Part shown: positions 2,380 to 30,901 of the stretch, one piece after another
Position numbering within the stretch: position 1 is the stretch's first letter
How the letters are laid out: each line of letters begins with the position of its first letter
Origin: Synechococcus sp. CS-1332
GTDB taxonomy: Bacteria; Cyanobacteriota; Cyanobacteriia; PCC-6307; Cyanobiaceae
DNA length: 64,000 nucleotides
Assembly (NCBI RefSeq): GCF_025127995.1
Contig: NZ_JAHLYP010000052.1
Location: forward strand, 62,001-126,000
Direction: 5' to 3'
Position numbers and translations under genes: made by a program
Notes under the pieces: generated by a model
What the model saw: only the letters and a program-made list of their open reading frames with translations
Told to the model about the DNA's origin: nothing
Database searches by the model: none

Positions 2380-2443
2380 GCTCCCGCCGGGCTCCGGCGC
2401 TGGGCGATCATGCCTGTCCCAGGACTCTCCCTGCGTTCTCGTC

Positions 2444-5119
2444 ATGGCTGCCGACCCCACCCGCCCCAGGCCTCGCAGCGGGGCCGAGATCCGTGAGGCC
2501 TTCCTCTCGTTTTACGAAGAACGGGGCCACCGGCGGATGGCGAGTGCCTCCCTGGTGCCCGAGGACCCCACGGTGCTGCTCACCATCGCCGGCATGCTGC
2601 CGTTCAAGCCGGTGTTCCTCGGCCAGGCGGCGCCACCGGCGCCCCGGGCCACCAGCAGCCAGAAGTGCATTCGCACCAACGACATCGAGAACGTGGGCCG
2701 CACCGCCCGGCACCACACCTTCTTCGAGATGCTGGGGAATTTCTCCTTCGGCGACTATTTCAAGGAGCAGGCGATCGCCTGGGCCTGGGAGCTCATCACC
2801 GAGGGGTTCGGACTCGATCCGGCCCACCTGGTGGTCAGCGTCTTCCGCGACGACGATGAGGCGGCCGCGATCTGGCGTGACGCCGTGGGGGTGAATCCGA
2901 AGCGGATCATCCGCATGGACGAGGCCGACAATTTCTGGGCCTCGGGCCCCACCGGCCCCTGTGGCCCCTGCTCGGAGATCTACTACGACTTCCACCCCGA
3001 GCGGGGCGATGACGCCATCGATCTCGAGGACGACGGCCGCTTCATCGAGTTCTACAACCTGGTGTTCATGCAGTACAACCGCGACGCGGCCGGTGCGCTC
3101 ACGCCCCTGGCCCGGCGCAGCATCGACACCGGTATGGGCCTGGAGCGCATGGCCCAGATCCTTCAGAAGGTCCCGAACAACTACGAAACCGACCTCATCT
3201 ATCCCCTGGTCGAGGCAGCCGCGGCGCTGGCGGGGCTGGACTACCCCGCCCTAGACACCCGCGCCCAGACCTCCCTCAAGGTGATCGGTGACCACAGCCG
3301 GGCCATCACCCTGCTGATCGCCGATGGGGTCACCGCTTCCAACCTGGGCCGGGGCTACGTCCTTCGCCGCCTGCTGCGTCGTGTGGTGCGCCATGGCCGC
3401 TTGCTGGGCATCGACCGCCCTTTCCTGGTGGCGATGGGGGAGGCGGCGATCGCCCTGATGGCCGCGGCCTACCCCCAGCTATTGGAACGGCGGGAGGTGA
3501 TCCTGGCCGAGCTGGTGCGGGAGGAGGCCCGCTTCCTGGACACCCTGGAGCGGGGCGAGAAGCTGCTGGCCGAGGTGCTCGCCACCCGGCCGGAGCGCAT
3601 CAGCGGCGACGCCGCCTTCGAGCTTTACGACACCTACGGCTTCCCCTTGGAGCTCACCGAGGAAATTGCCGAGGAGCACGGCCTGACGGTGGACCTGGAG
3701 GGTTTCGAGGCGGCTATGGAGCGCCAGCGGCAGCGGGCCAAGGCGGCGGCGGTGAGCATCGATCTCACCCTCCAGGGTGCGATCGACCAGGTGGCCGCGG
3801 CCTTGGCGCCCACCCACTTCCGTGGCTACGAGGCCCTCGATCAGGCGGCCTGCGTGCTGGCCCTGGTGGTGAACGGGGAACCGGCCACCCTCGCCACCGC
3901 CGGCGATGCGGTGCAGATCGTGCTCGACAGCACGCCGTTCTACGGCGAATCCGGCGGCCAGGTGGGCGACCGGGGGCTGCTGCTGGCCGGTGACGCGGGC
4001 GTTGAAGCTGGCCTGATCGTGCGCATCGATGCGGTCAGTCGCAACCGCAGCGTCTTCGTGCATGGCGGCCGCATCGAGCGTGGCACCTTGGCGGTGGGCG
4101 AGGTGGTGCAGGCCCGGGTGGATCGCAGCTGCCGCCGCCGCGCCCAGGCCCACCACACCGCCACCCACCTGCTGCAGGCGGCCCTCAAACAGGTGATCGG
4201 CGACGGGGTGTCCCAGGCGGGCTCCCTGGTGGATGTCGACCGGCTGCGCTTCGACTTCCACTGCCCCCGGGCCCTCACCCCGGCCGAACTGGAGCAGATC
4301 GAGGACCTGGTCAACGGCTGGATCGCCGAGGCCCATCCCCTGGAGGTGGGGGAGATGGAACTGGAGCGGGCCCGGGCCGCCGGCGCCGTGGCCATGTTCG
4401 GCGAGAAGTATGGCGAGGTTGTGCGGGTGGTGGATGTGCCCGGCGTCTCGATGGAGCTCTGCGGTGGGACCCATGTGGCCAACACCGCCGAGATCGGCCT
4501 GTTCCGGATCGTGGCCGAGACGGGCGTGGCGGCGGGCATCCGCCGCATCGAGGCGGTGGCCGGTCCCGCCCTGCTCCCCTACCTGAGGGAGCGCGACCGG
4601 GTGGTGAGGGAGCTGGCCGATCGCTTCAAGGCCCAGCCCGCTGAGATCCTTGAGCGCGTCGCCGCCCAGGCCGAAGAACTGCGGGCCACCGCCAAGGAGC
4701 TGGCGGCGGTGCGCGGCGCGTTGGCGGTGGCCAAGGCCAGCGCCCTTGGGGAGCTGGCTGAAACGATCGGCTCCCATCGGCTGCTGGTGCAGCGACTGGA
4801 TGGCGTCGATGGCGCCGGCCTCCAGGAGGCGGCCCAGTGCCTGCAGCAGCAGCTCGGTGTGGGGGCGGCCGTGGTGCTCGGCGGTCTGCCGGACCCGGCG
4901 GAGCTGGGCAAGGTGATGCTGGTGGCGGCTTTCGGTGCCGCGGTGGTGGCCTCCGGCGCCAAGGCGGGAGCCTTCATCGGTGGCATTGCCCAGCTCTGTG
5001 GCGGCGGTGGCGGCGGCCGTCCCCAGCTGGCCCAGGCCGGCGGGCGCGACGGCGCGGCCCTCGATGGGGCGCTGGTGGAGGCCCGCCGGCGGCTGCTCGA
5101 CCAGCTGGGAGGGGTCTGA
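2444..5119 (+). CDS. alaS: Alanyl-tRNA synthetase
   Basis: This 891-residue protein has the usual AlaRS length and order: a class II catalytic core at the N-terminus ([33 protein letters not shown]), a tRNA-recognition region, an editing domain with the zinc-binding HTATH (~residues 569-573) and CGGTH motifs, and a C-Ala domain ending in the glycine-rich segment GGGGGGRPQ. It charges tRNA-Ala in the cytoplasm and clears mischarged Ser or Gly. The gene starts 64 bp after glsA on the same strand and ends 17 bp before the convergent TpsB gene. Confidence 0.98.
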
Positions 5120-5136: not shown

Positions 5137-6843
5137 TCAGAAGCGGACATTCACCTTGGTGTAGAGCCCCTGCCCCAGTAGCCAGTCATTCCAGACGCCG
5201 AGGTTGTCGGTGGTGGAGAAGGGTTTGGCCCAGCCCAGCTCCACCGTCCAGTTGTTGTTGGCCAGCCAGCGCAGCAGCACCCCGCCGGCCCCCACCGTGT
5301 CGCCGAAGGAGCCACCGTTGAAGTTGGTGCGGATGCCTCCGGCGCCCATGAAGGGCACGAGCTGGAGGGCACTGGTCTTGCCGTTCCAGAAGGTCCACAC
5401 CGCTTCGGTGCTGGCCAGCCAGCCGCTGTCGCCGCTGATCAGCTGGCCGGGGAGACCACGCAGCCCCACATCGGAACCGAGGGTGAACTGCATCGAGGAG
5501 GTCAGCGGGGCAAAGGCCAGCTGGGCGGCGGTGCGCAGGTTGATCTGCCAGCGGGGGGTCACGGTCCAGGAGCCGGAGAGGAAGCCCCCGATGGCGGTGG
5601 CCCCACCGATGGCGATGCCTGCTTCCGCCAGTTGCTGGCGCTGGATGGCCGGGGTCGCTGCCGTGACGCCCTGCAGCAGGTAGGCACTGCCGTTCCAACC
5701 CAGATGGCGGCCGGTGCCGCTGCCGTTGACCCCGAAGCGCAGGTAGCCGCCGGCAGGGCTGCGAACACTTTCGGGCACGCCGGCCGGCAGGGCGGTGTCC
5801 TGCTCATAGGTGGTGCTGCGGCTGTTGCTGTAGCCGGCGAAGAGGCTCCAGCGCTGGCTGAGGGATTCGCGGAACACCCATTCGAACTGGGCCAGGGCCT
5901 GGAACTGGCTGGTGGAGAACCCATCCACCGGCGACGGCAGCTCCACCAGGTTGCGGCGGCTGAAACCGAAACCACCGGTGAGGCTGAAGGTGTCGCTGAA
6001 GGGGTAGGTGTAACTCACCGAGGCGATGGCCGCCCCCAGTTCGGGGGTGTCGGTGGCATCAAGCTCGCCGTAGATCAGCAGGGTGTCCCCTCGCCGCAGC
6101 AGGCTGGGTTTGAGCAGCGTGGCCACGGCCCGGAACTCGCCGGAGCCGCTGGTGCCGTCGTTGCGCAGCGCCAGATCCCCTTGCCAGGGTTCGCGGGCCG
6201 GCTCCACCGCGACCCGGAACACCCCTTCGGAGGGATCACTGCCCAACCGTGCCAGGGTGCCCCGCACGCTCTCGATGCCTGGTTGCCGCTTGAGCAGTTG
6301 TAGTTGCTGCTCCACCGTGGACAGCCGCAGGATCTGGCCGCGCAGGGGGCGCAACAGCCGCTCGACGCGACGGTTCAGCCGGGGATCGCCGCCGGACACC
6401 TGGATCCCGACGACACGACCCTCCACCACATCGAGATAGCCCGGGGCCGGCTCGCCCACCACGTAGACGCGGCTGCTGACATACCCATCGAAGACAAGCC
6501 GGGTGCTGAGGGCGACGGCGCAGGCCTTGAGCCGCTCCAGCGGATCGGCGATCCTGCTGCACTCGGCCAGGATCTCGCGCACCTGAAGAGGGCTGTAGAG
6601 CGTCAGCCCGCGGATCTCCGGCAGTGGGCCCGCTGGCTGCTGGGTCCCGGGAGCAGGTGTGGGAGGGGGTGGCCTGGTGCCATCGGGCTCGGACACCGGC
6701 GTTTCCAGGGGCCGGATGTCGACGGGGGCGGGCGGTAGTGGTTCGGAGGGGACCGGCCGCTCAAACTGACGCGAAGGGCCTGGCAACCGGATCGGGCCGT
6801 CCTGCAGGGGAGGGGCCACCAACTGGGCGAGAAGGAGCAGCAT
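5137..6843 (-). CDS. TpsB/FhaC/ShlB-family outer-membrane transporter of a two-partner secretion system
   Basis: The 568-residue protein has a hydrophobic N-terminus (MLLLLAQLVAPPL), a proline-rich linker (~20-70), a POTRA-type region (~80-235; YSPLQVREILAEC, YVSSRVYV) and a C-terminal 16-strand-type beta-barrel ending in aromatic residues (KVNVRF). The GLRGLPG motif (~465-471) matches the conserved arginine-containing barrel loop of the TpsB/BamA superfamily. It should sit in the outer membrane and export its TpsA partner, which is the divergent gene starting 85 bp away. The signal peptide is short for the family, so the true start could be upstream of 6843 in the shared intergenic region. 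Family assignment is firm; pairing with the adjacent TpsA is inferred from position. Confidence 0.93.
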   Translation of the reverse strand: MLLLLAQLVAPPLQDGPIRLPGPSRQFERPVPSEPLPPAPVDIRPLETPVSEPDGTRPPPPTPAPGTQQPAGPLPEIRGLTLYSPLQVREILAECSRIADPLERLKACAVALSTRLVFDGYVSSRVYVVGEPAPGYLDVVEGRVVGIQVSGGDPRLNRRVERLLRPLRGQILRLSTVEQQLQLLKRQPGIESVRGTLARLGSDPSEGVFRVAVEPAREPWQGDLALRNDGTSGSGEFRAVATLLKPSLLRRGDTLLIYGELDATDTPELGAAIASVSYTYPFSDTFSLTGGFGFSRRNLVELPSPVDGFSTSQFQALAQFEWVFRESLSQRWSLFAGYSNSRSTTYEQDTALPAGVPESVRSPAGGYLRFGVNGSGTGRHLGWNGSAYLLQGVTAATPAIQRQQLAEAGIAIGGATAIGGFLSGSWTVTPRWQINLRTAAQLAFAPLTSSMQFTLGSDVGLRGLPGQLISGDSGWLASTEAVWTFWNGKTSALQLVPFMGAGGIRTNFNGGSFGDTVGAGGVLLRWLANNNWTVELGWAKPFSTTDNLGVWNDWLLGQGLYTKVNVRF

Positions 6844-6928: not shown

Positions 6929-9900
6929 GTGTCTGATGGCAAAGGGATTGGTTCTAATGTTTTCGCCTGGAAAACTTACCCACCCATCAGCGTTGTGGGC
7001 AGGAATTTGAGTAGCAACAGATACCAATGTCCCAGTGAGTTGGCCCGGAAGGGCTGGTCGGGTTCGTCTCCTGTCCTGAAATCCACGCGTTGGCTCGCCC
7101 CGCTGAGGCTTGTCGCTCTGCTGGGGCTGGCGACCACGCCTGTCGCCGCCGGCGAGATCTCCGCGACTGGTGGTCCCCTGGGGCTGGGCAGCGTCGTGAA
7201 TGGCCGTCCAGGAGGCAGTTGCTTCGGCGGTGCCTGTGCGATCCAGGGGGGCACCTCCGCCGGGGCCAATCTCTTTCACCGCTTCTCCGCCTTCGATACC
7301 CGCGGTGGCATCACCGGCGTCAGCCTCGACGTGGCGGGCCATCGCAACGTCATGGTGGGCGTCACCCATCCCCTCGGCAGCTTCATCGATAAGGCCATAA
7401 CCCTGAGCGGTCCGGCCAACCTCGTCTGGCTCTCACCGGGGGGAATCCGGTTCAGTGGTTCCGGCACCTTCAACAATGTTCAGCAACTCAACCTGACCAC
7501 CGCCACCGGCCTGCGGGTGGGAGAGGGTCGTTTTGATGCGAACGGCACCACGGCCGCGGCCGCCGCCTCCCTGGCTGGAGCGCCCTTCCTGGGCCTGTCC
7601 GGGCTCAGCACCGACCCGTCCACCCTGAGCCAGCTTGGTCTTACCGCCCAGGGGGACCTGGCCATCGAGGGCGGCCTGCTCACCGTGGAGGGCGGATTGC
7701 TGCTGGATGCCCAGGGAGGCCACGTTCTGCTGGGGGGATCACGGCTTCAGGCCCCCGGGGGTCAGGTGGCCCTCCAGGGCCAGCAGGTGGCGCTTCAGAA
7801 CAGCACGGTGGATGTTTCCAACCCGGCCGGCTCTGGCGGAAGCATCAGCCTCACCGGGAAACAGGTTTCTCTGGCCGGATCCAGCCTTCTGGCGACAGGC
7901 CGCACGGCGGGAGGTGTCGTGCAGGTCGGTGCCGACCCCCTGGGGACCGCGACCGCGTTGACCACCACGGTGGATGCGTCCTCCGTTCTCCGGGCTGATG
8001 CCACCACGGCTGGCCGTGGCGGACGCCTCTTGGTCCTTGGCAAGGACGTGGCTGAAGTGCATGGTGCCGTCAGCGCCAGGGGTGGTCCTCAGGGAGGCGA
8101 TGGGGGGTTCGTAGAGACCTCGGCGGGTTGGCTGGCACTCTCCACAGCGCCGGATCTCTCGGCACCCAGGGGGCGAGGTGGAACCTGGCTGATCGATCCC
8201 CGCGACATCGAGATCGTCCCCTCCGGCACTGGGGGTGGCTCGCCTCCCGGAGGCACCTCGGTGGGTCCTCCCGGCTCTCCGTCGCGTATCGATGTCGGGC
8301 TCATCAACACGGCCCTCAATAGCGGGCAGACGGTGATCGTGGACACGACCGATCCCGTGGGCACCCAGCCGGGGACCATTTCCCTGCTGGCCTCGGTCGA
8401 GAAAACGGCTGGTGCGAACGCCAGCCTGGATTTGAGGGCCGACGGCAACATCCTGATCGACGTTCCGGGTGTGGACCCAGTCGCCTTCTCGAACACCTCC
8501 ACGCTGGGACGTCTGGATGTCGATCTCTGGTATCAGAAAACAGCTGATGCCTCCACACCTGCGGGTTCGATCAGCTGGCAGAAGGGCGCGGTTGATATCA
8601 ACACCGGCACGCTCAAAACCTTTCAGGGGGCATCCCGTATTGATGGCAACATCGAACTCACTGGTGCCGTTGAGCCCTTCAAACTTCTTTCGGGCACGGT
8701 TCGCACCGGAGAGTTTGGTTGGAGTCCAACCAGTCTGGGGGAGGTTCAGCTCTCCCTGTTTGGCAGCCCGAAACCTGCGACTCTGGATATCTCCAGGCGT
8801 TACGTTCAAGGTCCCGGTCGCACCGTCACAGCCTTTGCCACGTCACTTCTGAAAATTGGTCCTTCAGCCCAGAGCAGCCTGATCGACGGTGCCATTTTCA
8901 GGGATGCCACGCCGATCATCACGACCTTCATCCGAGTTGCTGATGGTGCCACCCTCGCCCTGAACCAGGCGACCATCAATGGTTCCAATCTGGCCGTTGA
9001 TAACGGGGCGCAGCTGCTTCTGTCGGGATCCAACCAGGTGACGGGCCTTGGCGGTGCCGGATCGATTCTGATCGCTCCCAACAGTACGTTGAATCTGCAG
9101 AGTTCGACCATTTCCCCGGGCACTTCGGTTGTTCTGCAGGGCAATGGTTCGGCCAGGCTGTTGATTGACAGTGCCACGTTCAGGAATGATGGAACCCTCC
9201 AGGGCTCCGGTGAGATTGAGGTGGGTGCCGGCGGTCTGGGGACGTTCACCAATGGCGGCTCGCCTGCGCCAGGGGCACCGGTGGCGGTGCTTGATCCCAT
9301 TGGATCGCTCCGCATTCGTGCCGCAAGTCTGCGGCTGGAGGCCAACAGCCAGCTCCTTTTCGATCTCTCCACCGACGATCAGCTCTCTGTTTTCGGTGAC
9401 ACGGTTCTTGGCGGTGGCTTGGAGGTGGTCTCTCCGCCGATCGTCGGAGTCCCCACCCCCTATGAGTTGATCCGGGCCCGCAGCATCACCGGTGCCTTCG
9501 CGCCAGGCCAGATCTTCCTGCCGATCGGTTTTGATCTTCAGGGTGTGGTGACGACAGGCGATCCGCAGTTGCCGGTCTCCTTAGGCGGAAGCCTGGCGGC
9601 AACCCTTCCCCCGCCCTTGGCACCCATCGACCCGCCCTTCACTCCCACGCCAATCCCGCCCCAGACGGTGACGGCACCCCCGGACCCGACACCGTCTTCT
9701 CCGCCGAGCCCCGCGCTCCAACTGCCCGATCTGGGGTTTCGCATCTTTCCCTCCGCCCAGACGACTCCCTTAGGTTCGAATCTCATCGCCAGCCGGCGCG
9801 GGGTGGGTTCTGATTCTCTGGCGGTGAACCTCTCGGAAGCTGATTTCAGTCTGGCCGGGGGCGCCAGCACCACACCGGGCTCCCTCAGCATCACCACCTC

Positions 9901-11248
9901 CACCCTTGCTTCGGACAAGGTGACGGCCGCGATTTCGGATGGGGAGCAACGGCGCACGGAGGACGTGAAAAGGACGCTTGGGGATGTGGGCAAGGCGGCA
10001 GATTCCAACGGAACCCTTCGCCTTGAGGAATTGCAACGACTGCTCAGCAAGGCCTCCCAGAAGGGGGACAAGGACGACGAGCGCTTCAACCCGGCGGTGC
10101 TGATGATCTCCTTCACCGAACAGAAGCAGGTGGCGGGCCAGGAGACGTCCGTTGCGGGTCAGGAGGCGAAGGCCCCAGTTGACACCGAGAAGAAACCGAC
10201 CAATTCATTCCTTGATCTGATCCTGCTCAGCCGCAAGGGTGAGCCGTTCGGCAAGCGGGTTGAGCTGTCACGGGAGCGCTTCGGCGACCAGCTGCGGGCG
10301 CTTTACCGGCAACTGGCCCGCCTCGAACCTCTGCAGGTGGAGAACCCTGAGTCCCCGTCCAGGCAGATCCACCGGGCCCTGATCGCGCCCGTGGCCGAGG
10401 AGCTCAAGGCCAAGGGCATCACCACCCTGGTGATCGCCGCCGATCGCGGCCTGCAGGGCCTTCCTTTCGCGGCCCTGCATGACGGCGCCAGCTATTTCGG
10501 TGACCAATTCGGCTTCTCGATCACCCCGTCCCTCAACCTCACGTCCTTCGGCCCTCCCCGGCTGACAAGGGGTCGGATGCTGGCCGCTGGGGCCTCGGAG
10601 TTCGAAGGACTCAGCCCCCTCCCCCTGGTGCCCGAGGAGCTGGCCGGCATCCCGGATGGGGTCGGCATCGACCGCTTCCTGAACAAGGCGTTCACCCCGG
10701 AGGTGCTGCTGAGCCAGGCGGCCGACCCGCGTTACGAGCGGCTGCACGTGGCCACCCATGCGGAGTTCATGCCAGGCGGACCGTCGCAGGCACGCATCTT
10801 CACTGGAACCGGCTCCGTCAGCCTTCAGGAGTTCGCCGGCCTGCGGCAGCAACGCAGTGGCAGTCCGCTTGAACTGTTCGTGCTGAGCGCCTGTCGCACG
10901 GCCCTGGGGGATAGCGACAGTGAGCTCGGTTTTGCAGGACTGGCCCTGCAGGCGGGATCACGCAGTGCGATCGGCACCCTCTGGTACGTGGACGATGTCG
11001 CCACCTCCGCCTATTTTCTGCAGCTCTATCGCTATCTCGATCAGGGCGTCCAGAAAGCCGATGCCCTGCGGGCCACCCGGCAGGCGATGGCCACTGGCAA
11101 AGTGCGGCTTGAGGGCGATAAGGTCATCGGGTCCGATGGTGTCCCCCTACTCACCGAATTGACACCTTCCCAGCGGCGCCGCATCGCGTCAGGCATGGCC
11201 CACCCTTACTTCTGGGCCGGGGTTCAGCTGATTGGAACCCCCTGGTGA
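6929..11248 (+). CDS. TpsA exoprotein: filamentous-haemagglutinin N-domain with C-terminal CHAT (caspase-like) domain
   Basis: The protein has 1439 residues. A long N-terminal extension leads into a signal sequence ([17 protein letters not shown], cleavage near residue 75). The TPS secretion domain follows (NLFHRFSAFDT, LVWLSPGGIRFSGSG; ~75-220), then repetitive beta-helix-like sequence to ~885, a proline-rich linker (~894-935), a charged segment, and a CHAT domain (~1150-1439). The CHAT His/Cys pair is present: H1277 in LHVATHAEF and C1322 in VLSACRTALG. TpsA proteins are normally exported by the partner TpsB, here the divergent gene. A secreted or surface-displayed caspase-like protease or adhesin is inferred. 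The start is the GTG at 6929; a TTG near 7006 would give a shorter leader. Confidence 0.92.
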   Translation: MSDGKGIGSNVFAWKTYPPISVVGRNLSSNRYQCPSELARKGWSGSSPVLKSTRWLAPLRLVALLGLATTPVAAGEISATGGPLGLGSVVNGRPGGSCFGGACAIQGGTSAGANLFHRFSAFDTRGGITGVSLDVAGHRNVMVGVTHPLGSFIDKAITLSGPANLVWLSPGGIRFSGSGTFNNVQQLNLTTATGLRVGEGRFDANGTTAAAAASLAGAPFLGLSGLSTDPSTLSQLGLTAQGDLAIEGGLLTVEGGLLLDAQGGHVLLGGSRLQAPGGQVALQGQQVALQNSTVDVSNPAGSGGSISLTGKQVSLAGSSLLATGRTAGGVVQVGADPLGTATALTTTVDASSVLRADATTAGRGGRLLVLGKDVAEVHGAVSARGGPQGGDGGFVETSAGWLALSTAPDLSAPRGRGGTWLIDPRDIEIVPSGTGGGSPPGGTSVGPPGSPSRIDVGLINTALNSGQTVIVDTTDPVGTQPGTISLLASVEKTAGANASLDLRADGNILIDVPGVDPVAFSNTSTLGRLDVDLWYQKTADASTPAGSISWQKGAVDINTGTLKTFQGASRIDGNIELTGAVEPFKLLSGTVRTGEFGWSPTSLGEVQLSLFGSPKPATLDISRRYVQGPGRTVTAFATSLLKIGPSAQSSLIDGAIFRDATPIITTFIRVADGATLALNQATINGSNLAVDNGAQLLLSGSNQVTGLGGAGSILIAPNSTLNLQSSTISPGTSVVLQGNGSARLLIDSATFRNDGTLQGSGEIEVGAGGLGTFTNGGSPAPGAPVAVLDPIGSLRIRAASLRLEANSQLLFDLSTDDQLSVFGDTVLGGGLEVVSPPIVGVPTPYELIRARSITGAFAPGQIFLPIGFDLQGVVTTGDPQLPVSLGGSLAATLPPPLAPIDPPFTPTPIPPQTVTAPPDPTPSSPPSPALQLPDLGFRIFPSAQTTPLGSNLIASRRGVGSDSLAVNLSEADFSLAGGASTTPGSLSITTSTLASDKVTAAISDGEQRRTEDVKRTLGDVGKAADSNGTLRLEELQRLLSKASQKGDKDDERFNPAVLMISFTEQKQVAGQETSVAGQEAKAPVDTEKKPTNSFLDLILLSRKGEPFGKRVELSRERFGDQLRALYRQLARLEPLQVENPESPSRQIHRALIAPVAEELKAKGITTLVIAADRGLQGLPFAALHDGASYFGDQFGFSITPSLNLTSFGPPRLTRGRMLAAGASEFEGLSPLPLVPEELAGIPDGVGIDRFLNKAFTPEVLLSQAADPRYERLHVATHAEFMPGGPSQARIFTGTGSVSLQEFAGLRQQRSGSPLELFVLSACRTALGDSDSELGFAGLALQAGSRSAIGTLWYVDDVATSAYFLQLYRYLDQGVQKADALRATRQAMATGKVRLEGDKVIGSDGVPLLTELTPSQRRRIASGMAHPYFWAGVQLIGTPW

Positions 11249-11272: not shown

Positions 11273-11698
11273 TTGCTTCCTTCCCCCTTCCTGTCCCACC
11301 TGTGGTGGGTCTCCACGGTCCACCCAGTTCCTCATTCAGTGCCTGATCTTCCAGCGGTCTTCAACGTCTTTCTGATGCTGGCGATGGCCCATTTCCTCGG
11401 GGATTTCGGGCTCCAAAGCGATCGCATGGCGAGGGAGAAGTGTCCAGGTTGCGGGGTGACCCTTGGGTGGGGCTGGTGGCTCACCTCCCATGCCGCCATC
11501 CATGGCTTTCTGGTGGGCATGGTCACCCAATCTCCCATTTTGGGTGTGGCAGAATGGGGTGTGCATCTGTTGATCGACTTCGGCAAATGCCGACGTCTGT
11601 GGACTCTGTCCATTGATCAGGCGCTTCACATCATCTGCAAGTTCCTCTGGGCCTGGCTGGCGATTCGGCAGGCCTCCACACCACTCTGGTTCCAATGA
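11273..11698 (+). CDS. DUF3307-type membrane protein
   Basis: The 141-residue hydrophobic protein matches the DUF3307 pattern: AHFLGDFGLQSDRMAREK near residues 38-55, then two conserved His sites (SHAAIHG) and the HLLIDFGK motif, all in or beside predicted membrane helices. The family is of unknown function and is often found in mobile or accessory settings. The given start is TTG at 11273; a GTG at 11339 would remove ~22 residues and still keep the first helix. Its stop overlaps the start of the DUF928 gene (ATGA, 11695-11698), so the two are probably translationally coupled. Confidence 0.72.
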   Translation: MLPSPFLSHLWWVSTVHPVPHSVPDLPAVFNVFLMLAMAHFLGDFGLQSDRMAREKCPGCGVTLGWGWWLTSHAAIHGFLVGMVTQSPILGVAEWGVHLLIDFGKCRRLWTLSIDQALHIICKFLWAWLAIRQASTPLWFQ

Positions 11699-12420
11699 AG
11701 AGAAAGGTTGCTGGTTCCCCCATGGCTGTTCCTATGCGTTTCCGCCCCCGCGGCGCTGCGCGACGTTTCCGCTTCCCGTTGCTGGCCGCTTTCCTTCTGA
11801 CCCTGGTCCCATTGGCGGCGATCGAGCCGCCGCAGGCCCAGGCCCAGAGTGAGCTGCGTAAAAGCTTCCCAGGCAGGCGGGTGGGTGGAGGAACCCGCGG
11901 TGAGTGCGCCAGTCGCCTTCTGGCCCACCTGGTGCCCTCCAGCAGTGTCTTCGCCCCCGGCAAGGCCCGCTACCTCGGTGTGCTCGAAGGCCCCAGTGCT
12001 GCCCCCAGTCCCCTGGAGATCACCTTCCGACCGCTGAGTGATCGCGGCACCGTGGACGGATCGATGTCCTCGGGCCAACGCCGGGTGCTGCCGGCCTCCT
12101 CACCGGGCATCACCCTCCTGACCCTGCCCCCAGTGAAGGTGCCGACGATGTGGGAGTCGAGCTACATCTGCCCAGGGGCGGCGGCCACCTCCACCCCTGC
12201 TGATCCGCTCAACTTCGTGGCCGCGGACTCGCCGCCGGCCCTGAGCCTGCTGGTCACGGAAGCCTCCAAGGAGGACGCTGCCGTCCAGGCTTCCCTGGCC
12301 AAACTGCGCCAGTCCTGTGGCTCCAGCGTGTCCAGCGTGGAAGTGGGCGCCAGCTTCGGCTTGTCTGATCTGATCACGGCCCAGTGGCCAGAGCGGCTTC
12401 CAGTGCGCTGTCCCGCCTGA
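11695..12420 (+). CDS. DUF928 family secreted protein
   Basis: This 241-residue protein has a twin-arginine-rich basic start, a hydrophobic segment (LLAAFLLTLVPLAAI) and an Ala-x-Ala cleavage region near residue 50. It then has the DUF928 opening (PGRRVGGGTRGEC ... LLAHLVPSSS) and an extended beta-rich body. A real start at the downstream ATG (11722, MAVPMRF) is possible. DUF928 proteins are largely cyanobacterial, periplasmic and uncharacterised. From general familiarity (not searched), they often lie near CHAT and CHASE2 genes, as here. The gene is convergent with the CHASE2 cyclase and overlaps it by 47 bp (12374-12420). Confidence 0.75.
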   Translation: MKRKVAGSPMAVPMRFRPRGAARRFRFPLLAAFLLTLVPLAAIEPPQAQAQSELRKSFPGRRVGGGTRGECASRLLAHLVPSSSVFAPGKARYLGVLEGPSAAPSPLEITFRPLSDRGTVDGSMSSGQRRVLPASSPGITLLTLPPVKVPTMWESSYICPGAAATSTPADPLNFVAADSPPALSLLVTEASKEDAAVQASLAKLRQSCGSSVSSVEVGASFGLSDLITAQWPERLPVRCPA

Positions 12421-14326
12421 GGCCGCCCCGCAGCTCCCAGATGCGCAGGGGTTCGGTGCGTCCCTTGACGCTCAACGCGCCCCAGTCGAGCCACTCCAGG
12501 GGCAGTCCCTTGGGCAGCAGATCCAGGGTGCTGGAGGACACCAGCACCCGGCAGAGATTGTCCTGACGATCCTTGTCGATGCTTTCCAGCCGCGAGGCGC
12601 AGTTCACGGCATCGCCGATCACCGCGTACTCCAGCCGCTCGCTGCTGCCCATCGATCCCGCCAGAACAGCGCCGGAATGGACGCCGACGCGCAGGGCCAT
12701 GGCCGGAAGCCCCTCCAGCTCCAGTTCTTCATTGAGGCTGGTCACGGCCCGTTGGATGGCCAGGGCGGCATCGATGGCGGCCTTGGCGTCGGCCTGCTCG
12801 CCACTGCTCAGGGGGGCGCCGAAAACCGCCAGCAGGCCATCACCGGTGAACTTGTTGACCATGCCTCCCCGGCGTGTGATCGCGGGGACGAACAGGGCCA
12901 TGCCCCGGTTCAGCCAGTCGAGCAGCTCCCCGGGGGTGAGCCGTTCCGACACGCTCGTGAACGAGCAGGTGTCCGACATCAGCACGGTGACCGGCAGCTG
13001 GCGCCCCTCGAAGCGCCCGTCGCTGAGCAGCCCATCCCGCTGGTTCCAGAGCTGGCGGGCGACGGCCGGGGAGGTGGTCTGGCCCAGCAGCCGTTCGATC
13101 TGCTGGCGTTGTTTCTGGCTGGAGGCGCCCCGGCGCACCCAGGCTGCACCCGCCATGGCGATCAGCCCGGTCAGAGGCATGCTCAACCCGACCCAGAGAT
13201 AGTTGTAGAGCAGCAGCACGGCGCCGCCGACCAGCAGGGAGGCCACCAGCACCACGACCATCACGCTGCGGCGCAGTAGTCGGAAGGCTTCCCCCAGCAC
13301 GATCCCCAGCACCACGGCCAGCACTTCGGCGACGCGCTCCACCCAGCCAGGCAGGGTCCGCAGTCGCCGCGGGTCCCCGGCCACGTAGCGGTCCATCAGG
13401 CCGGCCAGGCGATGGGCATGGATCTCGACGCCGGGCACCAGCAGCTGTTTCGCCCCGAGGGCGGATCGGGTCTGGGGCACCGGAAACAGGTCCCGCAGGC
13501 TGGGAGCGGTGGTCCCGATCAGCACGATGTGGCCCCGGATCTGGTCCCTGGGGATCGGCCTGCGGCCGAGCACATCCTGGAGATTCCAGAGGTGGAAGCT
13601 GCCGAGCTGGTGAAAGGAGAGCATCTTCTGGAAACCCGCGGCATCCAGCTGGTCGTAGCCCCCCGACGCCGGCTCCAGCCAGGGGCCCGGTTCGGTGCCC
13701 TTCTCAAGCCGCTGCCGCAGGCTCCGCTGGCCCTTGCCCACCTCCAGCAGGCGCAGGGGCAGGGACACGGTGGCTTCGTCCTGGCCGGCCACATGCACCA
13801 GATCGCGGCGGATCACCCCATCGGCATCCAGCACCAGATCGTTGAAACCGCGCCGGTCGGCGGGCGTACCCGGCACCGGGCCGATGGCTTCGGCCACGTT
13901 GAAGATCGAAACGAGGCGGGGATTACTGCGGAAGCGCTCGCGCAGGCAGGCCTGGTCAGGGCCGACGCCCTGGTCACGGTAGATGTCGAGGCCGATCGCC
14001 ACCGCCCCTGCGGCACTCAGCCGGTCGATGGCTTCGCACAGCACCTTGTCGTCGATGGGGAACCCGTAGGTGGCGAGGTCCGATTCGTCGATGCCGATGA
14101 TCGTGATCGCTTTGTCCGTTCCGGGCGGAGCCTGGCGCAGGCTGGTGATCAGGTCGTAGAGCAGCAGGTTGAGGGTTTCGTTGATGGGGCTGCGCTGCAG
14201 GGCCAGCAGCAGCAGCCCCGCGGCCGCGTAGGGCACGAGCGAGCGGACGCCATCCCCCAGATGGTGCAACCCCAGACGTGCCAGCAGGGAGGAGAGCGCT
14301 GATCCGGGCCCTTTCTTGCTGTCCAT
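12374..14326 (-). CDS. CHASE2-domain class III adenylate/guanylate cyclase (cyclase 1)
   Basis: The 650-residue protein has an N-terminal helix (~30-44), an extracytoplasmic CHASE2 domain (~45-330; IIGIDESDLATYG), three further helices (~335-415) and a C-terminal catalytic domain (~455-625). Metal-binding Asp residues (VLMSDTCSFT, NKFTGDGLLAVFG), the purine-site Lys and the transition-state Asn/Arg (VNCASRLE) are present. The second purine-specifying position reads Ala (EYAVIGD) where cyanobacterial adenylate cyclases usually have Thr or Asp, so the nucleotide product is uncertain. The start was chosen at 14326 because this ATG overlaps the stop of the upstream channel gene by one base (TGATG); the longer frame upstream only runs through that gene. 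Confidence 0.93.
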   Translation of the reverse strand: MDSKKGPGSALSSLLARLGLHHLGDGVRSLVPYAAAGLLLLALQRSPINETLNLLLYDLITSLRQAPPGTDKAITIIGIDESDLATYGFPIDDKVLCEAIDRLSAAGAVAIGLDIYRDQGVGPDQACLRERFRSNPRLVSIFNVAEAIGPVPGTPADRRGFNDLVLDADGVIRRDLVHVAGQDEATVSLPLRLLEVGKGQRSLRQRLEKGTEPGPWLEPASGGYDQLDAAGFQKMLSFHQLGSFHLWNLQDVLGRRPIPRDQIRGHIVLIGTTAPSLRDLFPVPQTRSALGAKQLLVPGVEIHAHRLAGLMDRYVAGDPRRLRTLPGWVERVAEVLAVVLGIVLGEAFRLLRRSVMVVVLVASLLVGGAVLLLYNYLWVGLSMPLTGLIAMAGAAWVRRGASSQKQRQQIERLLGQTTSPAVARQLWNQRDGLLSDGRFEGRQLPVTVLMSDTCSFTSVSERLTPGELLDWLNRGMALFVPAITRRGGMVNKFTGDGLLAVFGAPLSSGEQADAKAAIDAALAIQRAVTSLNEELELEGLPAMALRVGVHSGAVLAGSMGSSERLEYAVIGDAVNCASRLESIDKDRQDNLCRVLVSSSTLDLLPKGLPLEWLDWGALSVKGRTEPLRIWELRGGLRRDSALEAALATGP

Positions 14327-15807
14327 CAGGTGCCTTTGAAGGCGAAGAAGAGCCGTTTCATCGTGTCCAGCAGAGCATTGGAGCGTTCCGTGTGCTGTTC
14401 GCGATCCAGGTTTTTCAGTTCCGCCTGCCGCTCCTGAACCATGGCGGCGAAGCGCTCCAGCAGGTAGGGGTTCTCGTCCAGCAGGCCCTTGATGCTCTCC
14501 CGGTCGACCTCCAGCAGCAGGCATTCCTTGGTGGCCCGCACCGTGGCGCTGCGTGGCGCGTCCAGGAAGAGGGTCATCTCACCGAACACCTCCCCAGGCC
14601 CCAGCTCACGCACGGCCACGGTGTGGCCCGGCTCCAGCTCCTTGAGGATCTCCACGGTCCCCCGCAGCACATGGAACATCGAGCGGCCTTCGGCCCCCTC
14701 CTGCACCATCGCCTCACCGGGGCCGTAGGCCACCAGGTGGCTGCCTTCGACCAGCGTCTCCAGTTGCTCGCCGCTCAGCTCGGTGAAGATTCCCACGCTG
14801 GCCAGGGTCTGGCAGCACTGCTGGGGGGACGGCCGGTCGAGCCGCTGGGGCCGGTCCCGGGTGCGACGCGGTTGCAACTCCCGCACCGGGAAGGGGATGC
14901 TCTGCCCCTCACGGGCCAGGGCGTACCAGATCTGCTCCAGGAGATCACTGCGCAGGTCGCCGATGGCCCCATCCCCCAATTCCCGCTGCCACACCTGCAG
15001 TTCGTAGGCGATGGCGCTGTCCTGGAACTCCATGACCCGGATGTGGGGGAGCGGTTCGCGCAGCACCTTCGGATGCTGCAGTACCACCTTCTCGAGCAGG
15101 GCCCTGGCCTGGGCCGGCGGCAGGTCGTAGTCGAGGCCGACGCTGAACCGGTTGCTGACGGCCCCGGAGCGCCCCAGATTCCGGAGCACCCTCGCGGTGA
15201 CGAGGCTGTTGGGGACCACCACCAGCTGGCCGTCCATGTTGCGGAGCATGGTGTCTCGCCAGCTCACCCGCACCACCACCCCGCGCACCCCCTGATCCAG
15301 CTCGAGGAAGTCACCCTCGGTGAAGTCGTCCCCCAACTGAAGCTCCAGACCCGCGAACAGGTCCTTGAGGGACTCCTGGGCCGCCAGGCCGATCACGGCG
15401 GTGAGCACGGCGGAGGTGGTCACCAGCCCCACCAGATCGAACCGCGCCGACTGCCGCACCAGCACCACCGTGGCCAGGGCGCCGCTGCCGAGCGTGAGCA
15501 GCTGCATCAGCAGCTGCGGTGGAGGCCGCCACAGCCCCAGGTGGGCCGGGACCTCCAGGGTGGCCCAGAGGGCGATGAGGATGGCGGCGTAGGTGAGCAG
15601 CAGGTCGTCGGTGAGCAGCACCCACACCCGATAGGCCGGCAGCACCCCCTGCAGCGGCAGGGAACTCAGCACCGCCCAGGCGGCGATGGCCAGCAGCGGC
15701 AACCGCAGCGGCACGGCCGGCAGGTGCCTGAGGCGGCCGAGGCGAGCCAGCACCAGCAGCCCGGCCGTGGCAGCCAGGGCGCTGATCCAGATCTGCAGCA
15801 GGGCCAA
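14326..15807 (-). CDS. MscS-family channel with C-terminal cyclic-nucleotide-binding domain
   Basis: The protein has 493 residues. About five hydrophobic segments fill residues 1-155; the MscS pore and beta domain follow (~130-300; AAQESLKDLFAGLELQLGDDF, VVVPNSLV). A cNMP-binding domain occupies ~340-455 with an intact phosphate cassette (FGEMTLFLDAPRSATV), then a coiled-coil tail. This is the architecture of bacterial cyclic-nucleotide-gated MscS-like channels, which sit in the inner membrane and open with ligand rather than only with tension. It is followed directly by a CHASE2 cyclase with a one-base stop/start overlap, a strong hint that the cyclase makes its ligand. Confidence 0.93.
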   Translation of the reverse strand: MALLQIWISALAATAGLLVLARLGRLRHLPAVPLRLPLLAIAAWAVLSSLPLQGVLPAYRVWVLLTDDLLLTYAAILIALWATLEVPAHLGLWRPPPQLLMQLLTLGSGALATVVLVRQSARFDLVGLVTTSAVLTAVIGLAAQESLKDLFAGLELQLGDDFTEGDFLELDQGVRGVVVRVSWRDTMLRNMDGQLVVVPNSLVTARVLRNLGRSGAVSNRFSVGLDYDLPPAQARALLEKVVLQHPKVLREPLPHIRVMEFQDSAIAYELQVWQRELGDGAIGDLRSDLLEQIWYALAREGQSIPFPVRELQPRRTRDRPQRLDRPSPQQCCQTLASVGIFTELSGEQLETLVEGSHLVAYGPGEAMVQEGAEGRSMFHVLRGTVEILKELEPGHTVAVRELGPGEVFGEMTLFLDAPRSATVRATKECLLLEVDRESIKGLLDENPYLLERFAAMVQERQAELKNLDREQHTERSNALLDTMKRLFFAFKGT

Positions 15808-15896: not shown

Positions 15897-16601
15897 ATGC
15901 GCCCGTTGCTGATGCGCCCCTTCGCCGTCCTGCTGGGTCTGGTGGCGGCCGGGGTCTCCCCCCACGTTGCCGTTGCCCAGGTGCAGTTGCGCTGCGAGGG
16001 CACCCTGCTGGAGGCCCGGGGCAGCGCCGAACAGGAACGGCCCACCCGCCGGCTCTCGTTCTCCCTGTCCCTGGAGGCGGAGGCCAGCACCGCGGATGGT
16101 GCTCTCCAGAGCCTGCAGGAGCGCCTGGCGGCAGTGCGCACGGCGCTGCAGGGCCAGCAGGTGGAAGAGCTGCGGGTCACCTCGCCCAGCACCTGGCGGC
16201 GCGACGCCGAGCGCAACCGGCCGGCCGCCGTGACGGCCAGTCTTCAGGTCAGTGGCCGCCTGCTGCCCCAGCGGCTGCAGGCCCTGATCCGGGAGGTGGG
16301 GGCCCTGCCCGGGGTGCGCCTGTCACCGGTGGGCACCGAGGCCGATCGCGGCCTCGATGGGACCGTGCGGCGCCAGCTGCTGCGGGGGGCCTACCAGGAC
16401 GCCCTCGCCCAGGCCCGGGAGGTGGCCGCCGCCGTGGGCCTGAGCAAGCTCAACCCCCTCGAGGTGCAGCTGGACGGCAACGAATTGCGGCCGATGCAGA
16501 TGCGGGCTGCCACGGCCGATGCCGCCCCGCCCTTCGATCCAGCCGAGCTGGCGCTGCCGAAGGACCGCCTGAGCCTGACCGTGCGGTTCTGCGCGCGATG
16601 A
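15897..16601 (+). CDS. SIMPL (DUF541) domain periplasmic protein
   Basis: This 234-residue protein has a signal peptide (MRPFAVLLGLVAAGVSPHVAVA) followed by a SIMPL/DUF541 domain. Visible features are the oscillating beta/alpha pattern, an internal AYQDALAQAREVAAAVGLSK helix and a C-terminal strand (LSLTVRFCAR). SIMPL proteins are envelope proteins of poorly defined role. It is divergent from the MscS-like channel (89-bp gap) and overlaps a potential upstream start of the next FecR-like gene (16598). The first ATG (15897) is used; the ATG at 15912 would also leave a complete signal peptide. Confidence 0.82.
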   Translation: MRPLLMRPFAVLLGLVAAGVSPHVAVAQVQLRCEGTLLEARGSAEQERPTRRLSFSLSLEAEASTADGALQSLQERLAAVRTALQGQQVEELRVTSPSTWRRDAERNRPAAVTASLQVSGRLLPQRLQALIREVGALPGVRLSPVGTEADRGLDGTVRRQLLRGAYQDALAQAREVAAAVGLSKLNPLEVQLDGNELRPMQMRAATADAAPPFDPAELALPKDRLSLTVRFCAR

Positions 16602-18595: not shown

Positions 18596-20494
18596 ATGGC
18601 ACGCTCCCGAACCTTCCGCGTTCTCGTGGTGGCCGTGCTGGCCTGGGTGGGGGTCAGCTCCGGCTGGCCGGGGCCCCGGATGAGGGTCTGGGAACGGGGG
18701 GTGGAGCAGCAACTGCTGCTGCTGCGCGGTCCGCGGCGCCCCCCGGCGAAGGTGGTGCTGGTCACGGTCGACGACGCCACGCTCCAGCAGGGCGACTGGT
18801 TCGAGGAGGAGGGTCGCATCCCGGAATGGGCCAGGGGCGTCGGCAGCCTGCCCTGGCCCCGCGCCACCTACGGCATGGTGGCGGAGAAGCTGCTGCAGGC
18901 CGGCGCCAAGGCGGTGGCCGTGAATGTGGTCTTCGAGGGGCCCAGCGGCAAGGGCGCGGCCGATGACGAGGCCCTGGAGCTGCGCTTGCGGCGTTACCCC
19001 GGCCGGGTCGCCCTGGCGGCGGAGATGCTCGAGTCCAACGACACCCAGGGGGCCGGCTCGCTCACCTTCGTGCGGCCGGAGCGCTTCCTGTCGGCGATCG
19101 GCGGCACCGGCGCCCTCGGGCTCACCAACGTCCTCGCCGGCACCTCCAGCGAGGCGAGCCGCCATCCGGAGGCTTACGCCAGCGGCGTGCTCCCCGCCCG
19201 GGGCGCCGAAGGCCACAGCGCCCTCTCCTCCACCCTGCTGCGGCTGGGGGGCCACCGCAGCCGCCAGGACGACCGGGCCAGCTCCCTCAACTTCTATGGC
19301 CCTGAGGGCAGCTTCCGGCGCCTGCCGGCCTGGGAAGTGCTCGACCCCGAGCGTTGGAAGACCCATCCCCTGCGCAAGGACCTGGCCGGTTCGGTGGTGC
19401 TGCTCGGCCCTGTCGTTGCCCAGGGGGCCGATGGCTACCCCACCCCCTTCGGCAGCCTGTCCGGGCTGGAGGTGCTGGCCACCGCCACGGCCAACTCGCT
19501 GCAGGGGGACGGCCTGCAGCCCTGGCCCCGCAGCGCGCCGGGACGGGCCCTGCTGGCCCTGCTGCCGCTGCTGATCGTGCTCGGGGCGGCCCGACGCTGG
19601 AGCGACCTGCGCTGGCGTCTCGCCCTGGTGGTTCTGGTGCTGGTCCTCCAGGGGGCCCTCGTCGCCGTGGCGCTGCAGCAGGCCAACCGCTGGCTGCCGC
19701 TGCTGGCGCCCTCCTCGGGCCTGGTCCTGCTGGGCCTGCTCTACGGCGGGGATGCCTACCTGCGGGAGGGGCAGGAGCGGCGGCGCCTGCGCCGCACCTT
19801 CGAGCGCTACGTGGCTCCGGGGGTGGTGGCGGAGATCCTCTCCGACCCGGAATCGGCCCAGGGCATTCTGCGCGGCCGGCTGCTGGAGGTGACTGTGCTG
19901 ATGACCGACATCAAGGGATTCACGGTCCTCACCAAGCAGCGCAGCGGCGAAGGCCAGAGCGAGCTGCACGTGCGCCAGCTCAACGAGTACCTCGGCGCCA
20001 TGGTGGAGGTGGTCATGGCCCATGGCGGCACCGTCGACAAGTTCATCGGCGATGCGGTGATGGCGGTGTTCGGATCACCGGTGAGCAGGGGGGTGGCCGA
20101 AGAGGCCAGCCAGGCGGTGCGCTGCGCCCTGGCGATGCGAGAAGCCCTGGCCGGCCTCAACGAGGACTGGAGCCGCCGCGGCATCGCCACGCTCGACAAC
20201 GGCATCGGCCTGGCCAGCGGCCAGGTGATGGTGGGCCAGATCGGCAGCCCCCGGCGGATGGAATTCACCGTGATCGGCGACACGGTCAACCTGTCGGCCC
20301 GGCTGGAGTCGGCCACCCGGAATGTGGACGCGGCGGTGGTGTGCGACGCCCAGACCGCCAACCTGATTCAGGCTGATGTGGGCCTCGACTCCCGCTCCCT
20401 GGGGGCCCAGCCCGTGAAGAGCCTGGGGGAGGTGGAGATCTTCACGGTGTCGCTCCGGGATCAGGCCTCCAGCTCAGGTCAGGCCTCCAGGTAA
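18596..20494 (+). CDS. CHASE2-domain class III adenylate/guanylate cyclase (cyclase 2)
   Basis: The protein has 632 residues. It has an N-terminal membrane helix (~8-24), a CHASE2 domain (~25-310; VVLVTVDDATLQQGDW), three helices (~315-385) and a cyclase domain (~425-600). All catalytic positions expected of an adenylate cyclase are present: Asp in VLMTDIKGFT and KFIGDAVMAVFG, Lys before FIGD, Thr in EFTVIGD, and Asn/Arg in VNLSARLE. It follows the FecR-CAP gene after 89 bp on the same strand. It converges with speA and overlaps it by 16 bp. Of the three cyclases here it is the most canonical cAMP producer. Confidence 0.94.
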   Translation: MARSRTFRVLVVAVLAWVGVSSGWPGPRMRVWERGVEQQLLLLRGPRRPPAKVVLVTVDDATLQQGDWFEEEGRIPEWARGVGSLPWPRATYGMVAEKLLQAGAKAVAVNVVFEGPSGKGAADDEALELRLRRYPGRVALAAEMLESNDTQGAGSLTFVRPERFLSAIGGTGALGLTNVLAGTSSEASRHPEAYASGVLPARGAEGHSALSSTLLRLGGHRSRQDDRASSLNFYGPEGSFRRLPAWEVLDPERWKTHPLRKDLAGSVVLLGPVVAQGADGYPTPFGSLSGLEVLATATANSLQGDGLQPWPRSAPGRALLALLPLLIVLGAARRWSDLRWRLALVVLVLVLQGALVAVALQQANRWLPLLAPSSGLVLLGLLYGGDAYLREGQERRRLRRTFERYVAPGVVAEILSDPESAQGILRGRLLEVTVLMTDIKGFTVLTKQRSGEGQSELHVRQLNEYLGAMVEVVMAHGGTVDKFIGDAVMAVFGSPVSRGVAEEASQAVRCALAMREALAGLNEDWSRRGIATLDNGIGLASGQVMVGQIGSPRRMEFTVIGDTVNLSARLESATRNVDAAVVCDAQTANLIQADVGLDSRSLGAQPVKSLGEVEIFTVSLRDQASSSGQASR

Positions 20495-22491
20495 GTCGTC
20501 TGCTCCAGGCTGGCCCGGAGATGGGCCATCAGGCGCCGGGCGTCGCTGATGGCCAGGTCGCCCCGGCCGATGGCCTGCTCGCTGGCCAGGCGGAGCCGCT
20601 CCAGCAGCAGGTCGGGGTCGTGTTCCATCGCCTCGAGCACCTCGGCGTTGGTGTTGCCCCGCACCACGTGGTCGACCCGGTAGCCGCCCCCGGCCGCCAG
20701 CCGGATGTGCACGGCGTTGGTGCTGCCGAAGAGGTTGTGCAGGTTGCCCATCACCTCCTGGTAGGCCCCGCCCAGGAACAGCCCGATCCAGTAGGGCTCG
20801 CCCGGCCGCAGGTGGTGGAGTTCCAGCAGGGGCTTGACCTGGCCCCGATCGATGAAGCGGGCGATCTTGCCATCGGAATCGCAGGTGAGGTCGGCGAAGC
20901 TGCCGAGCCGGGTGGGCCGTTCATCGAGCCGGTGGATCGGCAGCACCGGGAAGAGCTGGTCGATCGCCCAGGTGTCCGGCGCCGAGCGGAACACCGAGAG
21001 GTTGGCGTAATAGGTTCCGGCCAGGGCCGCCGGCAGGGCCTGCAGCTCCTGGGGGATCACGGTGTCGGCGGCCAGGCCCTCGAGCTGGCCGGCGATCGCC
21101 TGGCAGCTCGCCCAGGTGAGCCGCTCGGCCGTGGCCCGCTCCGGCAGGCTCAGGTAGCCGAGCCGGAAGGCGGTGAGGGCGTCCTCCTTGAACTTGAGGG
21201 CATCGTTCCAGGCCTCCTGCAGCCGCTCCACCACGGCCCGCTCTCCCCCGCCCTCCCCTTCGACGCCCCCTGCCGTGGCGATCGCCGTGATCAGCGCGTG
21301 GGTGTCACGCAGGTTGTGCAGGATCAGGGCCTCGCCCTCGGCCGGCGGCGGCACCGCCTCGGTGTGGCCGCCGGCTCCGAGCACGTCGAACACCAGCACG
21401 CTGAAGTGGCTGGCCAGCGCCCTGCCGCTCTCACTCACCAGTGTGGGGGGGCGGATGCCGTGGGGCTCGCAGCACTCCCGGATCGTGGCGACGACGTCGT
21501 TGGCGTAGTTCTGCAGCGAGTAGTTGGTGGAGGCGGCGGTGGCAGTGCGGCTGCCGTCGTAGTCGATGCCGAGGCCACCACCCACGTCGAGGAAGCCCAT
21601 CGGGGCCCCCAGGCGAGTGAGCTCGGCGTAGATCTGGCCGGCCTCCTGCAGGGCGTCCTTGAGGACGGCGATGTCGTTGATCTGGCTGCCGACGTGGAAG
21701 TGCAGCAGGCGCAGGTCGTCGAGCAGGCCGGCCTCCCGCAGGCGCTCCACCGTGGTGAGCACGTCGGGGATCGAGAGGCCGAACTTGGCCCTCTCCCCCA
21801 CCGAGCTGCCCCAACGGCCGGTGCTGCGGGCCGAGAGCTTGGCGCGGATGCCGATGAACGGGGCCCCGCCCAGGGCGCTGCTGGCGGCGATGATCCGCTC
21901 CACCTCGTCGGCCTGCTCGATCACCACCACCGGCTGGCGCCCCAGGCGCCTGGCCAGGATCGCCGTCTCGATGTAGCGCCGGTCCTTGTAGCCGTTGCAG
22001 ATCAGCAGGGCGTCGGGGTCGTCGAGCAGGGACAGGGCGATCAGCAGCTCGGCCTTGCTGCCCGCCTCCAGGCCGAAATGCCAGCGGTGGCCGCTCTCCA
22101 CCAGCTGCTCCACCACGTGGCGCTGCTGGTTGCACTTCACCGGGAAGACGCCCTGGTAGCGGCCCTCGTAGCCGTACTGGGTGATGGCCCGCTCGAAGGC
22201 GCCGTGCAGCCGCTCCAGCCGGTCTTCGAGGATGTCGTCGAAGCGGATCAGCAGCGGCAGGGTCAGGTCGCGTCCCTGGAGCTCCCGCACCAGTTCCACC
22301 AGATCGAGGGAGCCGCCGCGGTCACCGCGGGGTTGCACCATCACGTGGCCCCGGGCGCCCACACTGAAATAGGGCTCGCCCCAGCGGTCGATTCCGTAGA
22401 GCGCCGCCCCGTCGGCGGCGCTCCAGGCGTCGGCCCGCCCGGAAGGGCCGGAGGGCACGCCCGGCGGGCTGGTCGGGTCGGCGAGCACCAT
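20479..22491 (-). CDS. speA: Biosynthetic arginine decarboxylase
   Basis: The 670-residue protein is a fold-III PLP enzyme of SpeA length that makes agmatine from arginine, the first step of this route to putrescine. The PLP lysine is in [15 protein letters not shown] (~residue 118); [23 protein letters not shown] and the C-terminal [12 protein letters not shown] are also recognisable. The start at 22491 ([11 protein letters not shown]) leaves a short unstructured N-terminus before [12 protein letters not shown]. It is divergent from ndk with a 241-bp gap and is a housekeeping gene within an otherwise signalling-rich stretch. Confidence 0.96.
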
Positions 22492-22592
22492 GGCGCCTGG
22501 GAGGAGGGAAGCCGGTCGGAGCGAATCTAGGCGTGGCCTTGTGGCGGCCGCTGCGGCACCTTCGGGTCACCGGCGGGTGCCGATCCACGGAT

Positions 22593-30410: not shown

Positions 30411-30416
30411 GGCGCG

Positions 30417-30901
30417 TTGGTTTCGCTGGGTGCACTCTGGGGCCTGGCGCCGTCGATGGACGCCGACGAGCCAGAGCAGAAATGTCCGCGAAAGGATCTT
30501 TCCTGGACGGTGCAACGTTTCAGCTCCTGGTCCGAGCGTCAGGCCCACCTCACCCGCTGGGTGCTGCAGCAGGCCCGGGATCAACTCGCGGCCCACCAGG
30601 CCCTGGCGCAGGCCGCTCCGGTAAACCCCTGCAGCCTTTCGCCACTGATGGGTCGCTCGAGGAGATGGCCCGGATCCGCAGCGGTGAACCCATCGCAGAG
30701 GTGTCCTTCGTCGTGGACCATCCCCGGCGCGCCGAGGGGCGGGCCATCGACGGACCCGCCACGGTGCTGGTGTTCGACGGTTCGGAGCTCGAGCAGTTGC
30801 TCCAGCAATCGTCGGAGTTCAATCGGGGCCCGCTCCATACCCTGGCCCTGAGGCTCGGGGACTTTTACGGCAAGCTGGACAGCTCCAACGTCTCCCGCTG
30901 A
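30417..30901 (+). pseudogene. Small unknown gene, apparently frameshifted near 30620
   Basis: One frame (positions divisible by 3) gives protein-like sequence from ~30417 or the ATG at 30456: DLSWTVQRFSSWSERQAHL, then WVLQQARDQLAAHQALAQAA. It loses this character near 30620. The frame one base back continues with LQPFATDGSLEEMARIRSG and EVSFVVDHPRRAEGRAIDG, then LVFDGSELEQLLQQSSEF, to a stop at 30901. A single missing base after the Ala-Ala would join them. Alternatively, only the 78-residue part from the ATG at 30665 is translated. I do not recognise the family. It ends 4 bp before argJ and starts beside the divergent coaE. Confidence 0.5.

Follow-up and report, generated by a model that had tools for sequence, protein, structure and literature searches.

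The genes of a putative cyclic nucleotide-gated channel and of a CHASE2 sensor cyclase, CYC1, share one base in Synechococcus sp. CS-1332, and we read them as a translationally coupled operon that may encode a local sensor-nucleotide-channel circuit (probability about 0.55). The evidence lies in the overlap itself, the domains of both proteins, the intact binding residues of the channel, most catalytic residues of the cyclase and the recurrence of the pairing, all of which can be followed in the 64,000-nucleotide stretch of DNA that was analysed (the window) and in related genomes. The product of CYC1 probably gates the neighbouring channel.

Junction, channel and cyclase

The pair and its parts lie on the minus strand of the window:

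12374 to 14326, minus strand: CHASE2 class III nucleotide cyclase CYC1, 650 aa (Pfam CHASE2, Guanylate_cyc)
13301 to 14218, minus strand: CHASE2 sensor domain, residues 37-342 (Pfam, E 6.7e-47)
12452 to 12994, minus strand: class III cyclase domain (Pfam, motif alignment)
14324 to 14328, minus strand: TGATG stop/start overlap (TGA 14328-14326, ATG 14326-14324, one base common to both)
14333 to 14337, minus strand: Shine-Dalgarno-like AAAGG (AAGGG in the majority of congeners), 6 nt upstream of the CYC1 start codon
14326 to 15807, minus strand: bCNG-type MscS channel gene, 493 aa, inferred TTG start (Pfam, AlphaFold model, Foldseek)
15334 to 15435, minus strand: predicted pore-lining helix, residues 125-158 (AF2 model)
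14905 to 15372, minus strand: MscS beta domain (146-211) and third domain (220-301) (Pfam PF00924, PF21082)
14470 to 14733, minus strand: cyclic-nucleotide-binding domain, residues 359-446 (Pfam PF00027, E 1.8e-21)
14539 to 14586, minus strand: phosphate-binding cassette FGEMTLFLDAPRSATV, including E410 and R419 (channel alignment)

Read along the minus strand, the junction is ...TTCAAAGGCACC TGATG GAC..., where the channel stop overlaps the cyclase start. This bears out the one-base overlap proposed in an earlier, sequence-only reading of the window. Of 12 congener loci read at the junction, drawn from two partly overlapping collections, 11 retain the TGATG overlap with AAGGG or AAAGG 6 nt upstream; the exception, L101, has TGAgcgATG. 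An overlap of the ATGA type, in the same gene order, is present in three genomes of genus g34 (L064-L066), and in L109 the gene of the second channel shares four bases with that of its cyclase. Gene starts are inferred throughout, and ORF-based intergenic gaps are approximate; for CYC1, an in-frame ATG is listed upstream, at 14524, and homologues align from the overlap ATG. Stop/start overlap across relatives is what would be expected of a translationally coupled pair, coupling itself being predicted. The coupling does not extend to other genes: a SIMPL gene (15897-16601) is divergent on the high-coordinate side of the pair and gene 11695-12420 is convergent on the low-coordinate side.

Within the MscS superfamily the channel falls into the bCNG type, which is already known; its own gating by cyclic nucleotide is predicted. 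It matches the Pfam families MS_channel_2nd, MS_channel_3rd and cNMP_binding, and runs from membrane helices and a pore helix through the MscS beta and C-terminal domains to the cyclic-nucleotide-binding domain. Within the pore region, LVxTSAVLTA and GLAxQExLK are strongly conserved in the channel alignment. The AlphaFold model (mean pLDDT 79.6, pTM 0.46, with relative domain placement uncertain) shows several membrane helices, the pore helix, the MscS domains and a binding domain whose C-terminal helix is long. Its first part resembles MscS and YnaI (Foldseek, E 1e-15), and the binding-domain model resembles the CNB-B domain of PKA RI-alpha with cAMP (Foldseek, TMt 0.81, rmsd 2.2); among the structure matches listed, no solved chain spans both the MscS part and the binding domain. 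The cassette FGEMTLFLDAPRSATV is intact, as the sequence-only reading had stated, with F408, G409, E410 and R419 invariant in 35 aligned channels.

In CYC1, the CHASE2 domain scores 160.6 bits against a curated Pfam cut-off of 26.3, and hydropathy places hydrophobic stretches at its C-terminal end, in line with a predicted external sensor. Motif alignment finds D452 and D496 (metals) as well as N575 and R579 (transition state) all present; in the purine-specifying pair, K492 is present and A568 takes the place of Thr/Asp at the second position, so that five of six key residues are canonical. These roles (metal, purine, transition state) are the ones generally known for class III cyclases. In the CYC1 orthologue group the A568 position is Ala in 38 and Gly in 4 of 44 sequences, and the other two CHASE2 cyclases of the window, its paralogues, have Thr there. 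Since K492 is present but A568 is unusual, the product is probably cAMP rather than cGMP, with specificity uncertain.

Conservation and recurrence of the pair

The family-level survey covered 201 genomes, and the named near relatives of the window are Cyanobium, Aphanothece and Synechococcus strains. Within the window's genus, channel and cyclase are adjacent in 7 of 11 genomes (window counted); among the remaining four, one (G062) has both genes unlinked and three are without the orthologous cyclase or without both genes. One congener (L050, in G132) has a channel 92% identical and no orthologous cyclase adjacent to it, and so offers a natural example of the channel without its cyclase. Elsewhere in the family, outside this genus, channel and cyclase genes mostly share a strand and lie 1-3 kb apart in a variable cluster beside alaS and NDK/gatB. 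At L063 a SIMPL gene stands between channel and cyclase.

Channels of the same architecture were sampled by score regardless of their neighbours, and adjacency was counted when no more than 1.2 kb separated a cyclase domain from the channel domains, a measure preferred over ORF-gap figures. A cyclase is near 10 of 32 bCNG channels in the family sample (6 on the same strand). Among other cyanobacteria, a class III cyclase adjoins 15 of 40 bCNG channels, all on the same strand and all with the cyclase first; the corresponding counts are 2/45 in other phyla, 1/20 in a sample of a further channel subfamily and 0/38 for MscS channels that lack the binding domain, taken from that same survey of genomes. 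The difference between 15/40 and 0/38 gives a Fisher p of 1.3e-5 and that between the pooled 16/60 and 0/38 a p of 1.8e-4, in tables whose rows are related and are not independent events. The channel tree holds at least eight changes of adjacency, six of them on well-supported branches, in a count that includes the mislabelled L063 and some labels unsure at ORF edges. The adjacency labels of L063 and L087 on this tree were rejected as artefacts of stop-to-stop ORF ends.

The cyclase-channel pairing appears to have arisen in at least five lineages that look independent, among the window's genus, g34 with L109, the deltaproteobacterium L119, the dCache group, L198 and L200/L252. The sequence-only reading had suggested a search for the same adjacent pair in other genomes; it is found there, so that the pair is not unique to this genome, the outcome which that reading had named as refuting. 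Both the gene order and the overlap come in two forms among the recurring pairs, as does the type of sensor, and this recurrence speaks for a functional link. Two contigs labelled Bifidobacterium breve and Rhodopirellula (L093 and L113) have channels that match or group with those of Synechococcus/Cyanobium, and are probably misbinned. We found no publication linking MscS/bCNG channels with adjacent cyclases, in a search that missed bCNG papers, and an earlier description is possible.

Integrity of paired enzymes and binding sites

The cyclases adjacent to channels are of the CHASE2 K..A/T, CHASE2 E..G (guanylyl-type) and dCache-HAMP kinds, and both gene orders occur. Their partner channels were compared at the cassette by alignment, a regex search having missed degenerate forms. 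In all CHASE2 pairs, cyclase and binding site are both intact, with L088 as an apparent exception; its rating as a degenerate pair was rejected, its cyclase being read in broken pieces. In the dCache group, Ser replaces the cassette Arg in 14/14 channels examined and a catalytic residue is lost in 12/14 cyclases, while two members keep all catalytic residues. Overall, cyclase integrity matches binding-site integrity in 28 of 31 pairs, and since the degenerate pairs form a single clade, the match amounts to about one evolutionary event. That the enzyme and the binding site agree in state suggests a link through the nucleotide. Channels that stand without a neighbouring cyclase have lost the cassette Arg as well, and adjacency was not significantly associated with this Arg in an independent-pairs (independent-contrast) test (p 1), because the coupled channels without it all belong to one clade.

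All channels with guanylyl-type (E..G) partners have Arg-Thr. A channel ligand residue covarying with cyclase type was considered and rejected, since L198, whose partner is adenylyl-type, and many unpaired channels also have Arg-Thr. The bCNG channels L192, L200, L203 and L252 stand beside CHASE2 E..G cyclases, two of these 0.9 kb off, and are possible cGMP versions of the circuit.

The genome of the window holds four class III cyclases, three CHASE2 cyclases in the window and one on contig C49 that was typed as dCache-HAMP by its likeness to Pfam-tested members. Two of the four are coupled to bCNG channels, and a rough Poisson estimate puts the chance of two adjacencies at 1e-5; 4 of the genome's 13 MscS-family matches carry the binding domain. 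The second pair is:

Contig C49 (L272, G000:C49): cyclase 1-2073 and channel 2070-3458, with an ATGA overlap

This pair is degenerate, with the catalytic Asn of the cyclase changed to Lys, its Arg to Ser, and the cassette Arg of the channel to Ser. It indicates that coupling can persist after apparent loss of the nucleotide chemistry.

Proposed circuit, alternatives and known systems

In the proposed circuit, the CHASE2 domain, predicted to lie outside the membrane, would sense a signal and control the cytoplasmic class III cyclase, whose product (cAMP likelier than cGMP) would bind the C-terminal domain of the co-made channel and shift its gating. Here we infer the enzyme activity, the identity of the ligand, opening rather than closing, the ion selectivity and the signal itself. 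The stop/start overlap would fix the ratio of the two proteins and place their synthesis together, so that a local nucleotide pool could act. Counted against the circuit, relatives often have the channel and CYC1 1-3 kb apart, unlinked (G062) or with one missing (G132), and near cyclases are rare beside channels of the further subfamily (1/20) and of other phyla (2/45). The earlier idea of a two-gene module, in which a periplasmic signal leads to a nucleotide that directly opens the channel, holds in part. The residues for synthesis and for binding are present, which makes the module the best reading; A568 is odd, and with about 20 cNMP-binding-family matches (18 above the Pfam cut-off) and three other class III cyclases in the genome, the nucleotide need not be private.

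Other genes noted in the window are:

490 to 2379, plus strand: glutaminase with STAS-like and C-terminal cNMP-binding domains
5137 to 6843, minus strand: ShlB/FhaC-type secretion pore gene
6929 to 11248, plus strand: haemagglutinin-like protein ending in a CHAT domain, adjoining the ShlB/FhaC-type gene
11695 to 12420 and 20521 to 22530, plus strand: two genes without a Pfam match, retained in the cluster across genera
18596 to 20494 and 23780 to 25774, plus strand: two further CHASE2 class III cyclases, canonical K..T, within 12 kb of the pair
29864 to 30901, plus strand: protein with a weak, partial cNMP-binding match below the Pfam cut-off

The glutaminase, possibly cyclic-nucleotide-regulated, is seen in many related clusters. 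The ShlB/FhaC-type and haemagglutinin-like/CHAT genes stay near CYC1 across genera, and gene 11695-12420 is convergent, overlapping or abutting the 3' end of CYC1 in most genomes.

The channel and CYC1 could instead be parts of a regional cyclic-nucleotide cluster, lying between alaS and gatB, in which adjacency reflects shuffling and co-regulation and a general cAMP pool serves many receptors, the glutaminase being one example and the channel just another. Such a cluster would fit the presence, within 30 kb, of three CHASE2 cyclases along with two or three proteins that carry cNMP domains; it would also fit the constant content and changing gene order across genera, where the steadiest neighbour of CYC1 is the convergent 11695-12420. 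However, the stop/start overlaps are conserved and of two different kinds, and cyclase-channel pairs exist outside the cluster and in other cyanobacterial families, so that we regard this account as rather unlikely. Direct protein contact, with the sensor enzyme regulating the channel much as a subunit would and with nucleotide chemistry secondary or lost, draws on the L272 pair, which keeps its ATGA coupling without the catalytic Asn/Arg and whose whole channel clade is without the cassette Arg. The window pair retains both sets of residues, with R419 invariant, and two cyclases of the degenerate clade retain all catalytic residues; this account seems improbable to us.

It is also conceivable, and in our view unlikely, that the channel is mainly tension-gated and that the cyclic nucleotide merely tunes or closes it. 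The complete MscS beta and C-terminal domains and the pore helix are compatible with this, whereas the name "bacterial cyclic nucleotide-gated", as it stands in Caldwell et al. (2010, PMID 20529663), implies ligand gating in other members. Extending the preferred reading of a sensor-nucleotide-channel operon beyond the window is more tentative. Sensor-cyclase/bCNG operons may be a recurrent bacterial circuit of receptor, messenger synthesis and gated channel, put together repeatedly from sensors of different types (CHASE2, dCache-HAMP) and with different messengers, made by adenylyl- or guanylyl-type cyclases; one branch, also found in this genome, would have lost catalysis and phosphate binding and would now couple by contact or through another ligand. 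We hold this broader view as possible and somewhat doubtful.

Channels of the bCNG type belong to the MscS superfamily (Caldwell et al. 2010; Malcolm et al. 2012, PMID 22206667, 23052972). Like them, the window channel joins an MscS core to a C-terminal cyclic-nucleotide-binding domain; the difference here, which may have been described before, is the overlap of its gene with that of a sensor cyclase, with predicted translational coupling. CYC1 shares the CHASE2 domain, hydrophobic stretches, metal Asp pair, Lys, Asn and Arg with cyanobacterial CHASE2 class III adenylyl cyclases, but its group has Ala or Gly (42/44) at the second purine position, where the window paralogues have Thr. The cyclic nucleotide-gated K+ channel SthK is likewise a prokaryotic channel with a C-terminal binding domain, to which that of the window channel has a sequence match, yet its pore fold is unrelated to the MscS pore found here. 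The best sequence matches of the binding domain are those of PKA RI-alpha and PKG, with a fold match to PKA RI-alpha, but these proteins are kinase regulators without a channel.

To our knowledge, the native gating cue of bCNG channels, and the reason cyanobacteria keep several of them, are not settled. The coupled cyclase names a likely source of messenger for one specific channel, which makes the question testable by heterologous co-expression, and the degenerate L272 pair in the same genome offers a natural comparison between coupling through nucleotide and coupling through contact.
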